From: Macrophomina tecta
Lineage: Eukaryota > Ascomycota > Dothideomycetes > Botryosphaeriales > Botryosphaeriaceae
Length of the DNA stretch: 64,000 nucleotides
NCBI GenBank assembly: GCA_024180945.1
Contig: JAKSGN010000007.1
Span: forward strand, 1,736,001-1,800,000
Reading direction: 5' to 3'
The notes below the pieces were generated by a model. That model saw only the letters and a list, made by a program, of their open reading frames with translations. It did no database searches and was not told where the DNA came from. The position numbers and the translations under genes are program-made. Shown piece after piece: positions 35,162-62,458 of the stretch (the stretch's first letter is position 1; each line of letters begins with the position of its first letter).

Positions 35162-35282
35162 GGCTCAGTGGTCTAGTGGTATGATTGTCGCTTCGGGTAG
35201 TGTTCCCAGGCCTCCTTAGAGGTCTAAGAAAGCTGTATGCTTGAAATGTGACAGGCCCCGGGTTCGATCCCCGGCTGAGCCC
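35162..35282 (+). tRNA. tRNA-Pro(CGG) with a 49-base anticodon-loop intron
   Basis: Acceptor stem GGCTCAG (35,162-35,168) pairs with CTGAGCC (35,275-35,281), discriminator C. D-arm GTGGTCTAGTGGTAT; anticodon stem GTCGC/GTGAC with loop TTCGGGT, anticodon CGG; T-arm CCCCGGGTTCGATCCCCGG. A 49-base intron lies just 3' of the base after the anticodon, the canonical site for the tRNA splicing endonuclease. The mature length is 72. A T6 Pol III terminator follows at 35,285. Confidence 0.95.
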
Positions 35283-36645: not shown

Positions 36646-36733
36646 GGGTCTTGCCGCGGATCGAACGCGGGGCCTCTCGCAAGCAACTCAGGGTGTGCCC
36701 TAAGCGAGAATCATACCACTAGACCACAAGACC
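36646..36733 (-). tRNA. tRNA-Pro(AGG) with a 16-base intron
   Basis: Read on the minus strand: acceptor GGTCTTG/CAAGACC, D-arm GTGGTCTAGTGGTAT as in the CGG isoacceptor, anticodon stem CTCGC/GCGAG, loop with anticodon AGG, a 16-base intron after the base 3' of the anticodon, and T-arm GCGTTCGATCCGC. Mature length 72. A T-rich stretch just 3' serves as the Pol III terminator. Confidence 0.93.
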
Positions 36734-50960: not shown

Positions 50961-53732
50961 TGTTAGAGAAGATAGGCCAGACTTAAGACTGATCTCTTCT
51001 ATTGTAGGGCTGGGGCTTTGCGGAGTCTCGAGTAATTGTAGCATTGGATGAGGCTGGAGAGCATACCGATGACAGGCCGTAATGCGTTGTCTCCGAAAAG
51101 GAAGGGGGCGAAATCAAAATATCGGAGAGAGACCATGTTGTGACGCTATGGTCGCATAGCTTTTCAAACAATGGGCATGTTGATATCGGGTAGACATCGC
51201 CATTGGACGGAACGTTGAGCAGGCGGTGAGCTGATTGTGTGTCTGGAATATCACCTTGTCGTGACTCCATTGTGATCAAGGGGCTCGCTGAGGCGTCGAG
51301 GTGTCGAGATGTGACGCTGTAGGAGCTGAGATAAGTCCTTGGGCAGAAGGTAGCAAACTGGAACGGGTCCATCAGTGGCACAACGCTCTGTACCGCTTCC
51401 CAACGGGTTCGTATGGTGGCACCGAACGGTTTGACTACATATGGGTTCTGCAACATGAGGCTAGAATAATCCTTAGGCTTTCGGCTCATCACAGATGTAA
51501 CTTCCGCGCCTACCTAATGATAACTCGAACTGCAGGCAGCAACATGCTCTCTATCAGGTATGTTTTTGCGCAGGCAACTTTGTAATACAGTGATGCCCAT
51601 CACTGCTTTTATTCCCCATTCCGACCGTGCTATTTTCTTTGAGTGACCCAAAGTAATCATAGATACTGAGCTTGCACCAATTGGCAGCGGTGGGACGAGT
51701 ATAATCATTCTGTCAGCACTTGTTGGAGGGTACATGTGCTTGCTTCGTTTTAAGCAAGGTGGATATTAAGAGAAATATTCCATTAGACCCAAAGCTTTAC
51801 CTGCAATTTCACTAGATGAGAGATAGGATTTCTTACTGTTGCACCGATGGTACGAGGGGAGTTGAAGTAGTCGTGCAGACGTCTATTTGCAAAGCAGTTG
51901 GCGACATCTCCCCCCTGACGACTGCTTGAGCTGCACATCACATATTCCTGCTATTGCCTGAGGACTCGCGCAGATCCCTTGCTTATTCGTGCGGTAAGAG
52001 TGTATTCGTGGCGTGGAGTGGGTCTTTCAGAGGCCACGGCGGATATCCACACCACTGGGTAGCCGTATTTCTCTCCCACGGGCACCGACACCACAAGAAT
52101 AGCCTAGGTATTTTTAAATACCAAACCCGATATCATCAGTATAGTTTCATTAAAGTGCGTTTACTTTCCATGGACCCATTTCGAAGCCCAATCTATCGCA
52201 TTTCCCTGCCTACCCTTCACCACTTCGCAACCTCAGCATCACCCCAACTACCCTGCACATGCCATCCTCGTGGACCATAAAGCCATCAACTATACACCGC
52301 CCTATACTCAGTCGCGCCTACTACGCACCTGCACACTTGCCCATTTTCCCACAACTTCAAACGTCTGAAAATACACTCGCGCATGTGATCCCGAGGCACA
52401 AACACCCTAGCCCCTTCCCCCCTATTCCTCTTTCCTCTCATTTCCTCTTTCAATCTATGAAAAGCCACGCCGAGGATCCGGAAATGTTAACTCCGTCCTG
52501 ACCACCGCCCATCTGGAAACGGAGACGCGGCCGAAACTGGCGAGATTTGCAGTTCCACCGCCCACGCCTTGCCGAATTGGATAGAGATGCCCGTGCTCCT
52601 GAAGATCGGCACACTAGGAGATTCTCAATGAAAGGTGCGGGGATGGGCGGCTTAGTCATGATGATGCGATCAGAAAGTTGCGGTATACCGAGGCAACGTG
52701 GGGCGTACAGTGGGTGGTGAATAAGACAAGACCAGACAAGCAACGGGAGAGCGGGGTCAGATGCGGGTGATCGTTGCGGAACGCGGGATTTAGCGTAGAA
52801 GTCCGGGCTGTTCCGATGCCCATCGATAGGAGGCTAGGTTAGTGTTAAAAGTATTGTAGCGGCATGCATGCAGGTGCGCGGTGAGTTGAAGCATTCGCCC
52901 AGACGCAAGTATCCGGAGAAACTGGTCGCATTCACGTTCGTATGAATGCTTCAACTCTCAATGATCGAGTTACGCTATGATACTCCTGGCAAAGATGATA
53001 CCCTTCCTTGGGCAAACGTGAAGCCTGTTCGTGGCAGTATTGCAGCACAGCGCCTTCCCGTGAAAGGGAGAAGCAATCGCTTGGATGGGATGCCTCGTGG
53101 CTGTAGCTACACATCCACGTCTGGAAGATGAATCTGATTTTGTCTTGATTCCAGTGGCATTACCTGCAGCTAGGAACACGTATCCTTGGGGTGACGGGCT
53201 TGAACGAGTGTCGGGTGGTTGGTAGCGATGGGGACTCTGACCAGGTCCTTCCCAAGGGCCAGATGTTGCTGATGCAGCCGCGTGTCGACGGCTTGATACG
53301 CCTCATTTCTCATATTTACGGCTTGTCTTGATGTAGATGAACCAGCAGCCGCTACTAGTCTTGCACTTGTGCAGCATTCAGGGCGGCTCCGCGCGTCCCC
53401 CTCTGGCCGCATTGCTTTTGTCGTGGCTGAGATTGGTAGACAACTCACGTTTAAAGAAGATCATAAAAGGGATGTGGCGGCAAAAGCTTGCGCGTCGAAC
53501 ATGAAGCAGGCGTGTTATCGGACATGTCGCCGCCGTTGTCGTACGCGTCGTCGTCATCGTTCGCTCCCAGGGAGAAACAGCTCCAGGGTCTCGCTTAGCA
53601 CGTTACGCGGGCCGCTAGTGGCCCACGAAAACAAGTCGTTGCCGTTTTTCGTTATAATCTCAAAAATTTGTCCACCTCACCAACCAATCACATCAAGCCA
53701 CTTCAGATGCATTTCTGGACTACGCTATCAAC
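50961..53732. other. Gene-poor region 3
   Basis: About 2.8 kb with no recognisable gene. The minus-strand frame at 50,983-51,492 has no family features. One paired-arm short repeat is at 52,884-52,956. Confidence 0.5.
52884..52956. repeat. Paired 23-base arm element, copy 3 (inverted)
   Basis: Left arm 52,884-52,906 (begins AGTTGAAGCATTC) and right arm 52,934-52,956 (ends GAATGCTTCAACT) are inverted. The outer 14 bases pair perfectly. Confidence 0.8.
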
Positions 53733-53908
53733 GGCTCAGTGGTCTAGTGGTATGATTGTCGCTTCGGGTAGTGTTTCCCAGGCCTCCGAAGAGGTCTAGA
53801 AAGCTGCATGCTTGAAATGTGACAGGCCCCGGGTTCGGTGAGCAATTCAAGTTCGATTCTGATGATGGAATTCATCAACTAACTAATAATAGATCCCCGG
53901 CTGAGCCC
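53733..53908 (+). tRNA. tRNA-Pro(CGG) copy interrupted in the T loop by a spliceosomal-intron-like insert
   Basis: Same tRNA as at 35,162: GGCTCAG/CTGAGCC acceptor with discriminator C, identical D-arm, anticodon stem and CGG anticodon, and a 49-base anticodon-loop intron that differs at a few positions. Unlike the other copy, 55 extra bases (53,838-53,892) lie inside the T loop, splitting GGTTCG from ATCCCCGG. Removing them restores an exact T-arm and a 72-base mature tRNA. A T-rich terminator (TTTCTTTTT) follows. Whether the gene still makes tRNA is unknown. Confidence 0.85.
53838..53892 (+). other. 55-base GT-AG intron-like insertion in a tRNA gene
   Basis: It starts GTGAGC (fungal 5' splice consensus), has CTAAC near the 3' end and ends TAATAATAG. 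It also holds GTTCGATTC, which looks like a Pol III B box, and a near-palindrome GATGGAATTCATC. No protein-coding exon surrounds it. Confidence 0.8.
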
Positions 53909-55194
53909 CACTACGTTTCTTTTTGCATTTTCGAATGTCTTCAAGACTTTTGGTCTGCTGTTGCGCATATTCCAACTATTTTGCAGGGGAGGCGTGATTG
54001 AAGCGCTCGAATGGAGGCAAGTAGGTATTTGAAACGTATACTTGGCAACAAAGGTCGAACACCTAGAGACTTCAACTACCTCTGAGCACCAGCCTTCTCT
54101 TCTGTGCGAGCAAATCTGAGGACATTGCGCGTCAAAACATGCCCACACCTTGCCCTTTTGCCTTGCACCAACGTACACCTCAAAAAGAAAAACCAAAGCA
54201 ATGCAACCGAACGCCTCAACCGCTTCGGTAGTATGGCACGCGACAAAGACGTATCCATACCGCTCGATGCCGGGATCCTCTCCACCTCCGCCAAATTCGC
54301 ACAGTCCTCAGTAACGCAACCTTGCTATCTCAAGAACATTTATCCGCTTGGCCCATCACCCCGGTATCAAGCCCATCATGCGCACCAACCACGCACTCAA
54401 TCAAACCGAAACGCGCGCGCGCGCGGGCCCCCGGGGGGGGGGGGCGGGGAGGGTGGAAGGAAGATCGATCGTCTTGTCCTCGCCAACGGACTCCTTTTCC
54501 GAAACAACCGAGACCAAATTGCTAAATAATGTTTCGAAACACATGTCCTTCTCTTCACCCTTCGTTGCCACCCTTGATCATCATACAATGCACGGAAGCA
54601 GGGAAACCTAAGTAACAAGGCCTGCACTACTACCGGCAGAGTAAACGATGATGAGCCCGCCCCGGCATCTCCGTTACTATCTCGTAGTCACGATTCATGC
54701 TGCCGTATGTATCTACGTATCACAAAGACGACGACGATCGCTATCTCGCCTCCAGGCTGAAAGACTGGAAGGGTGATGGTTGCGCGGACGACCGTCGTAC
54801 ACTAGGCGAGTCTGTGTGATGGAGCCGACATACTCAACAAGTAACACTATTACATCCCCACAACAGGACCAAATCCTTTCCTTTGTAAAAATCCCATTTT
54901 AGAGACTACCCAACAAGGGAAGAACAAAGAAAACCTAGCTAAACACTACAGCTCAGAGTCTGTCCCGTTTGGCATACTTTGCTCTCTGTTCCGGTGTCTC
55001 TTATACTCTATGATATCATTCTCTTACTCGAGTGGTCTACCAAGCCGTGACTCTTATTGAGTTCACGCGCATAAATAAAAGCTCTTATCCAAAAATTTCC
55101 CTTTTCTCTCGTTTCACGCCAATTCAATCATACCCAATCAAAAAAAAAAAAATCCGTCTCTTACACACAGCGTAAAAATTGCAGAACAAGTCTC
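53909..55194. other. Intergenic region 3' of ATP sulfurylase
   Basis: About 1.3 kb. It contains an alternating CG tract running into G12 (about 54,410-54,444) and an A-run of 12 near 55,141. No gene is called. Confidence 0.5.
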
Positions 55195-58262
<3,068 letters not shown>

Positions 58263-60845: not shown

Positions 60846-62458
60846 CTAGTTGCTAATATCGGCTAGAACACCACCAGATGCCGCCTTCTCAGCATCAAAG
60901 ATCTCCGCGCTCTCAAGTCCCTCAGGCGCTTCCTTGGGGACCTGGAACACCGGGTTACGGTAGTCAGGGGTGCTGGCGACAGTCTCGAACCAGGCCAGAA
61001 TGGAACTCTGCGCCATCGGAAATATAATTTCGCCGAAGGTGCGCTTGCCAGACGACAGCATGGGAAAGTAGTGATAACCCCAGTCATTGCTCTGATCAGG
61101 CATAGTCCGATCCGGTTCGGTGGGAGCTTTCTGGATCTGATCAATGGCCAGCTGCGAGATAGCTGACACAAGCCCATCTGACGCACGGCTGATCAGGCCA
61201 AGCAGTGGGCCGGAATCAGCATCATCCTCAATCTTCTCCAGCCAGGGAGTGCTAGGGTGGCTGGTGGACTGCTCCCGCTTTTCCGGATGATCGGTGCTGC
61301 AGGGAACCGCCAATGGAGTGCCTAACGGCTCTTGAGAACAAACCAGCGCACGTGCACGATGACGAAGGAAGGCCACGAAGTCCTGATCACTGAAAGGCTC
61401 TTGAATTGGAGTGGGGTCTGTCAGTGCAATTGCAGCTATACGGTCCTTGTATAGGGTCCAATTATCGTTAAGAACCTTCAGCACAGCATCGCCGCCGTTG
61501 CCAATACCCACCACGTAGATGTTCGCCTTAGGAGAGACCCATGTCGGGTTGTTGATAATTTTTGCAAAGGTGGTCTGAACATGTTCCTCAACGGTCCTGT
61601 TGCCGTCGATCTTGTTGAAGGCCGGGTGAACGGTGGGAATGGGGTGAATGCCAGACTTGCGAGACTGAGAATTCCAAGACTGCTTCGTCATAGCCTTGTC
61701 CAGACGGTAGGAGTACAGCAGCTGACCAGGGTTTAGCACGATGAGGCCGGGGACCTTCCAGTCATCGGGGACCATGAATGGAACATCTTCGGTGATTGGT
61801 ACGGACGCCTTGCTTGCAATTGGAGCCTCCGGGCAGATGTTTGCACCAGGCTTGGGGATGAAGTTCTCCTTGATCTCGTGCTCTCGCTGAGGTGATTTCG
61901 GGAAGGTAGAGGAGCAACCGGCATCCACGCCGGCAGCTTTAGAAGCGAGTTGGTTGGTCTGCATCTTCTTTGCAAGTGAAACCACTGATGCCGCCTCTAT
62001 GCCGCCTTCCTTGCCCGCAATGCGGTAAGCCCACATACCAAGGTCTTGGAAGTCGTCGTTGATTACCACAATGATCCTCTTCAGTTTCCGCAGTTCTTCC
62101 TTCTTGGTGACGAAGATTGGAACAGAGGGCTCGCCAGTGGGCTTCTCGGCGGTGGCGTGAGGTAGGTAAATGGGAGGGATTCCAAGAGCCTTCATGCGAT
62201 GGCTGATCTCCTCGTTGATGCAAGCGTGCATGACTTCACGGAAGGACTCGTTGACGCGGTCATTATTGGACATCCAGAAGTTGTAGTAGTTGTGGGGTGA
62301 CTTGATGGTTCTGATCTCGGACCTTTCGTCGATGAAGAAGCTAGAAAAGAGGTTAGCTGAGAGTGGTGCTGCTGAGCTTTGTGCACTTGCCCAAGGTCCT
62401 TGAGGTTCGCCCGATAGGCTGGGTCTTCAGGCATACCAGCCCCAGTTAGCCGGTACAT
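60846..62458 (-). CDS. Arb2-domain protein
   Basis: Two exons: 62458..62391 and 62340..60846; 520 residues. The N-terminus M-Y-R-L-T-G-A-G-M-P-E-D-P-A-Y joins K-D-L-G-F-F-I-D-E-R-S-E-I-R through a GC-AG intron (donor GCAAGT). The Arb2-type alpha/beta-hydrolase-like domain follows: R-I-I-V-V-I-N-D-D-F-Q-D-L-G-M-W-A-Y-R, then G-L-I-V-L-N-P-G-Q-L-L-Y-S-Y-R, H-P-A-F-N-K-I-D-G-N-R-T-V-E-E-H and Y-V-V-G-I-G-N-G-G-D-A-V. In fission yeast Arb2 acts in the argonaute siRNA chaperone complex, and a similar domain ends the Hda1 deacetylase; stand-alone fungal members like this one have no settled role. The C-terminal third is less conserved. Confidence 0.85.

Follow-up and report, generated by a model that had tools for sequence, protein, structure and literature searches.

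A tRNA-Pro(CGG) gene with two interruptions

The stretch of DNA analyzed here (the window) comprises 64,000 nucleotides (nt) of the genome of the fungus Macrophomina tecta (GenBank assembly GCA_024180945.1, contig JAKSGN010000007.1, positions 1,736,001 to 1,800,000 of the forward strand). It contains, at positions 53733 to 53908 of the plus strand, a gene for a proline transfer RNA (tRNA), tRNA-Pro(CGG), which is interrupted twice, once between tRNA positions 37 and 38 (37/38) and once between positions 57 and 58 of the T loop (57/58). The parts of this gene and its uninterrupted copy are as follows:

53733-53769, plus strand: exon 1 of tRNA-Pro(CGG), positions 1 to about 37, equal to 35162-35198 of the intact copy
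53770-53818, plus strand: canonical 37/38 tRNA intron of 49 nt, with the site and length of the intron that ARAGORN places in the intact copy
53819-53837, plus strand: exon 2 of tRNA-Pro(CGG), to G57 of the T loop, same as in the intact copy
53838-53892, plus strand: messenger RNA (mRNA)-type intron of 55 nt between G57 and A58, with a single match in the genome
53838-53843, plus strand: predicted 5' splice site GTGAGC, from its sequence motif
53851-53859, plus strand: match within the 55-nt intron, GTTCGATTC, to the B box of RNA polymerase III (Pol III) promoters, by motif (consensus GWTCRANNC)
53879-53883, plus strand: predicted branch site CTAAC, by motif, with the branch A 10 nt from the intron end
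53890-53892, plus strand: predicted 3' splice site TAG, from its sequence motif
53893-53908, plus strand: exon 3 of tRNA-Pro(CGG), A58 to the 3' end, same as in the intact copy
53920-53924, plus strand: run of five T's read in the sequence, a likely Pol III terminator
35162-35282, plus strand: intact tRNA-Pro(CGG) paralogue with an empty T-loop site, from ARAGORN and comparison

An earlier note on this DNA had described 55 extra bases in the T loop relative to the copy at 35,162, and the comparison bears this out: once the insert is removed, 72 of 72 exon bases equal those of the intact copy, which lies 18.6 kb off and which ARAGORN recognizes as tRNA-Pro(CGG) with an intron at the usual 37/38 site. 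The empty copy sets the boundaries of the insert, with a one-base slide possible, and the motifs that the note had read in the insert (GTGAGC, CTAAC, and TAG) are all present. A search of the 54.1-Mb genome with the 55 bases, as the note had proposed, matched only their own locus. The 37/38 introns of the two genes are 3 substitutions and 2 one-base indels apart. Because the 100 nt upstream of both genes are related (score of 20.5, versus 11 or less in 300 shuffles) and the 100 nt downstream are not (score of -8.0; shuffle mean of -5.0), the two are, judging by these flanks, an old duplicate pair. Close to the intact Pro(CGG) copy is a Pro(AGG) gene, at 36646-36733 on the minus strand (window 34.98-36.73 kb). 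Rfam scans of the window returned no matches, intact tRNAs included.

The class of interrupted tRNA genes

The analysis noted 77 distinct nuclear tRNA loci in the genome, and 12 of these tRNA genes carry a total of 13 mRNA-type introns, so that, the window gene aside, at least 11 further genes have such introns at noncanonical sites; the earlier reading of a spliceosomal-type T-loop intron is thus supported and widened to a class. The ratio of 13 to 77 is no genome-wide rate, since the tRNA searches scored 63 of 1323 and 40 of 62 candidates and T-loop introns were deliberately sought. Five introns lie in the T loop at 57/58 [Pro(CGG), Asp twice, Arg(CCT), and Pro(AGG)], and the others in the D loop of Pro(AGG), the D stem of Arg(TCT), the anticodon stem of two Phe genes, and the D stem of four initiator Met genes. 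In our own numbering the positions are 57/58, 24/25, 30/31, 19/20, and 11/12, none of them the canonical 37/38, which passages of a review (PMC3978253) give as the exclusive site of nuclear tRNA introns.

A spliced-exon search of the genome found four initiator tRNA-Met genes, all of them (4/4) split at 24/25, and no initiator gene lacking this intron; an intact gene would be expected to outscore the four found. Exons of the four genes are 86 to 100% identical, and the introns are 54.5 to 69.6% identical (shuffle means, 48 to 52%). Of the six intron pairs, four fall within what the shuffles give, and the two that exceed it both involve locus L195. GTAAG, CTRAC, and YAG are nevertheless retained in all four introns, and compensatory changes occur in two acceptor pairs (listed) and two T-stem pairs (from the alignment, by eye). 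Because the introns have largely diverged, the splice signals have been kept, and stem pairs have changed on both sides, the genes are likely alive; the pattern is, as read from these alignments, that of old introns in working genes.

The same search found five Phe genes, two of them interrupted at 30/31, as well as eight Asp loci, of which two are split at 57/58 and one is without a normal 5' end. ARAGORN miscalls led to one initiator tRNA-Met gene with its D-stem intron and one tRNA-Phe gene with its anticodon-stem intron; of the interrupted genes given to ARAGORN, some were called Cys, Arg(gcg), or Thr(cgt), and none was reported for the rest. Arg(TCT) came to light as a partial Rfam match, in which removal of a 54-nt intron at 11/12 (GTATGT...ACTAAC...TAG) gives a full cloverleaf. 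In this gene (L235, G000:C2:1075113-1075230) the A box is interrupted by the intron; judged by eye, the terminal TAG and the exon after it (GCAATGG) together come close to remaking an A box at this 3' junction. Nine fungal tRNAs used as a query matched only Arg(TCT).

A whole-genome pattern for T-loop introns (57/58, 36 to 66 nt) gave 22 rows and its reversed control 50; a stricter first pattern gave 4 rows (control, 2), and a pattern for longer introns gave 23 (reversed control, 38). As the rows are not enriched, the evidence lies in the 4 of 22 that are tRNA genes after in silico splicing [Asp(GTC), Arg(CCT), Pro(AGG), and the window gene], plus one row that is a duplicate of the Pro(AGG) gene truncated at its 5' end; the remaining 17 gave no tRNA after in silico splicing. 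Elsewhere, the T-loop pattern matched at least 120 stretches in genome contigs (with bacterial and archaeal titles) and 5 in viral contigs, and the initiator pattern found two viral contigs with tRNA-Met, which were uninformative.

The Pro(AGG) gene also has the D-loop insert. With both inserts removed, 88 of 88 bases equal those of intact Pro(AGG) genes (a comparison that includes its 37/38 intron), and its identity follows from this match; with the D-loop intron left in, ARAGORN called the gene Val. In all, this gene has three introns, in the D loop (L167, G000:C3:2918469-2918522), at 37/38, and in the T loop. Its 5'-truncated duplicate (L185, G000:C37:3288433-3288580) includes the downstream flank, in which many C/T or G/A differences, uncounted, are visible by eye; repeat-induced point mutation would leave such differences.

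The boundaries of all 13 introns are independent of the splice motifs because they were set by an intact paralogue with identical exons in 7 cases (Pro-CGG, Pro-AGG, Asp twice, and Phe twice) and by a cloverleaf restored on removal in the other 6 (initiator Met four times, Arg-TCT, and Arg-CCT). The idea that Arg(CCT) is single copy and hence essential was rejected, as another Arg(CCT) type is present in several copies.

Some observations concern other tRNAs. Among the matches listed, several isotypes (Glu, Ile, Trp, Cys, Asn, Tyr, elongator Met, and Ala-AGC being examples) had no intact nuclear copies, and a contiguous elongator-Met pattern had no match in the genome; isotypes without listed intact copies may be interrupted too or may simply be unscored. 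Two partial tRNAs, L240 (Ser) and L241 (Lys), look decayed by eye, and ARAGORN finds no gene at either. Contig G000:C17 (125.7 kb) accounts for 13 of 62 Rfam tRNA matches and is probably the mitochondrial genome.

Splice signals and promoter elements

The 13 introns are 52 to 58 nt long, all with GT-AG ends, and each has a branch-like motif with its A 10 to 12 nt from the intron end. In shuffles that held the terminal dinucleotides, a GTRNG start (11/13 introns) appeared on average 1.0 times and at most 6 times. For strict CTRAY within the branch window (also 11/13), the shuffle mean was 1.1 and the maximum 5; the test of the last three bases was uninformative (12/13, versus a shuffle mean of 10.9). 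Since three T-loop introns came from a pattern requiring GTRNG and YAG, we recounted without them and the window insert (n = 9), and the 9 introns found without a splice pattern had GTRNG in 7 and CTRAY in 8 (0/5000 shuffles).

The earlier note had likened the insert to the mRNA introns of the window itself. Alignment of three window genes to one homologous protein each from Botryosphaeria dothidea, Neofusicoccum parvum, and Macrophomina phaseolina located seven such introns, which are indeed similar in 5' site, branch, and length: they are 50 to 72 nt long (six GT-AG and one GC-AG), with 5' sites of the GTAAG or GTACG type (one GC) and CTRAY or CTAAA with the branch A 11 to 17 nt from the end. 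The aligner was limited to GT/GC...AG introns of 40 to 150 nt, so that the ends and rough length were imposed and the longer 5' site and the branch were free. In these respects the 13 tRNA introns resemble the window mRNA introns. The GC-AG intron lies at 62341-62390 in an Arb2-domain gene. One window frame is 98% identical to an M. phaseolina Arb2-domain protein, another is, over half its length, 100% identical to an M. phaseolina P450, and the PMT frame is 96% identical to that of B. dothidea; these matches place the window in Macrophomina or a close relative.

The T loop forms part of the B box, and an intron at 57/58 thus breaks this promoter element; the native B box of the window gene is split by the 55-nt intron. 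Within four of the five T-loop introns, near intron nt 12 to 15, stands TTCGA (in the contexts GTTCGATTC, GTTCGAATTC, GTTCGAATC, and ATTCGATTC), which is found in 0 of the 8 other introns. The chance of TTCGA in at least 4 of 5 introns is about 4e-5 by shuffling, for a motif picked after the first cases had been seen. It is as if the intronic TTCGA replaced the interrupted B-box core. Downstream of each of the 13 introns, no more than 140 nt from its end, lies a run of at least four T's.

Explanations and known systems

The insert is, in our estimation, very probably a U2-type spliceosomal intron that interrupts a tRNA gene and belongs to a class of such introns in this fungus, and the best reading, held with similarly high confidence, would be that Pol III pre-tRNAs are spliced by the spliceosome. 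Introns at 37/38 are ordinarily cut by a dedicated endonuclease. In the order of steps that we infer, the T-loop intron, which splits the native B box, would supply a replacement for it roughly 12 nt in from its own 5' end, the spliceosome would excise the 55-nt intron via GU, CUAAC, and AG and thereby restore the T arm, and the ordinary tRNA endonuclease and ligase would remove the 49-nt intron at 37/38.

Several observations weigh against spliceosomal processing of these transcripts. Since an intact paralogue of the window gene exists, the interrupted copy may be dispensable to the cell, and uninterrupted copies exist for Phe, Asp, and Pro(AGG) as well. Splice signals are weak in Phe L205 (GTTCGT, CTAAA) and in the branch of Asp L201 (TTAAT), the Pro(AGG) D-loop intron (L167) ends in GAG and has no YAG, and Phe L204 starts GTCAGT and contains a run of four T's that could hinder Pol III. 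The full GWTCRANNC occurs in only 2 of 5 T-loop introns (the window insert included; 0 of 8 others), the Arg(CCT) T-loop intron has neither TTCGA nor GWTCRANNC, and initiator locus L194 has no run of at least four T's within 45 nt downstream of the gene end. One U6 gene was found, and it seems intronless because its family match runs end to end over 99 nt. Moreover, the survey covers one genome.

The earlier note had suggested that the gene might be transcribed by RNA polymerase II (Pol II) or be dead. For the class as a whole, both suggestions are disfavored by the shared site of interruption and the stem compensation in initiator Met, by the B-box cores, and by the T runs; that the window gene itself is a dead tRNA copy into which DNA was inserted, its intron look inherited or accidental, is kept as an unlikely rival. 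The intact copy at 35162 would allow such a loss, the genome does hold decayed or truncated tRNA pieces (L185, L240, and L241), and passages of PMC4090602 describe short D- and T-arm insertions in eukaryotic tRNA genes, for the most part in a single member of a large synonymous set, and state that such genes are presumed to be pseudogenes. Yet the exons are unchanged at 72 of 72 bases, whereas the 37/38 intron has changed, and a Pol III-like T run is retained; introns occupy the same site in two Asp genes, Arg(CCT), and Pro(AGG), and the spliced-exon genome search found no uninterrupted initiator-Met gene.

Transcription of the interrupted genes by Pol II, inside longer host transcripts that are spliced as such, is in our view quite improbable. 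This would explain the access of the spliceosome without a new rule, and an open frame of 152 codons (53297-53755, plus strand) overlaps the start of the window gene, but that frame has no Pfam match; the only one of four frames tested that has one, an APS-kinase frame (55198-55965, minus strand), is more than 1.2 kb from the gene, and the B-box cores in four of five T-loop introns and the T runs downstream point away from Pol II.

An active introner-like mobile element, an origin proposed in the earlier note, is highly improbable at the sensitivity of the genome search: the 13 introns searched together, like the window insert alone, gave no further copies, each matching only its own locus, apart from the truncated Pro(AGG) duplicate. 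Common descent of the introns was rejected too, as words shared between introns do not exceed those in shuffles (the longest, 11 nt in Pro-CGG and Arg-CCT, was reached by 34% of shuffles with ends held). Hardly credible, finally, are ectopic introns cut by the tRNA splicing endonuclease at a bulge-helix-bulge, in the style of Cyanidioschyzon merolae, where the T loop can be interrupted at 55/56 (PMC3978253, in part), or of nucleomorph tRNA genes, whose D and T arms contain introns that in some cases are demonstrably excised and in many lack a defined motif (passages of PMC4090602 and PMC3978253), since the 4-bp central helix is present in 0 of 13 introns in the one register tested (about 6% expected by chance; canonical Pro introns as control, 3 of 4, which makes the control partial and the test only supportive) and GT, CTRAC, and AG at fixed spacing are unexpected for that enzyme.

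If the transcripts are spliced as proposed, the spliceosome routinely accepts tRNA precursors, tRNA genes with D- or T-arm insertions that have been taken as pseudogenes should be looked at again, and the annotation of essential tRNA genes fails, as the ARAGORN miscalls show. An intron could then invade a gene with an internal promoter by carrying a replacement promoter element. Because every initiator-Met gene found carries an mRNA-type intron, the data suggest that protein synthesis of this plant-associated fungus depends on the spliceosome, a machine thought not to handle tRNAs. It is probable, with somewhat more reserve than for the introns themselves, that initiator tRNA-Met, and so all cytoplasmic translation, needs the spliceosome on a Pol III transcript, that tRNA maturation and pre-mRNA splicing are coupled, and that T-loop introns took over part of the Pol III promoter via the B box. 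The occurrence of such introns across fungi and the effect on translation when splicing is limited are directly testable.

In the open-access literature searched, outside which most subscription papers lie, we found no report of spliceosomal introns in tRNA genes. In C. merolae and nucleomorphs, as here, tRNA interruptions lie outside 37/38, D and T arms included (passages of PMC3978253 and PMC4090602), the Guillardia nucleomorph inserts being 3 to 24 nt long (PMC4090602, in part). C. merolae introns form a bulge-helix-bulge, whereas the introns described here show its core in 0 of 13 cases in the register tested and have spliceosomal signals instead. Passages of PMC4457414, PMC8450103, and PMC11782384 deal with introner-like elements, tRNAscan-SE, and direct repeats, respectively. 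The introner-like elements of Dothideomycetes are likewise spliceosomal introns, acquired within the class to which this fungus belongs, but for the 13 introns here no further copies were found. Other fungi besides Schizosaccharomyces pombe also have mRNA-type introns in U6, and these U6 introns share with the present ones the combination of an mRNA-type intron and a gene that is, in our case presumably, transcribed by Pol III. The S. pombe U6 introns reportedly hold a B-box match, a finding credited to Frendewey et al. in 1990. According to part of PMC8917221, the S. pombe U6 gene is a Pol III gene whose spliceosomal intron is removed by the spliceosome. Unlike in U6, the hosts here are tRNA genes, interrupted at several cloverleaf positions and often beside a canonical tRNA intron. 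Nuclear rRNA genes of ascomycetes also contain spliceosomal introns and thus share with the present genes an mRNA-type intron in a structural RNA gene; they are Pol I genes for a large RNA with no internal promoter to replace, and in this the tRNA genes described here differ.
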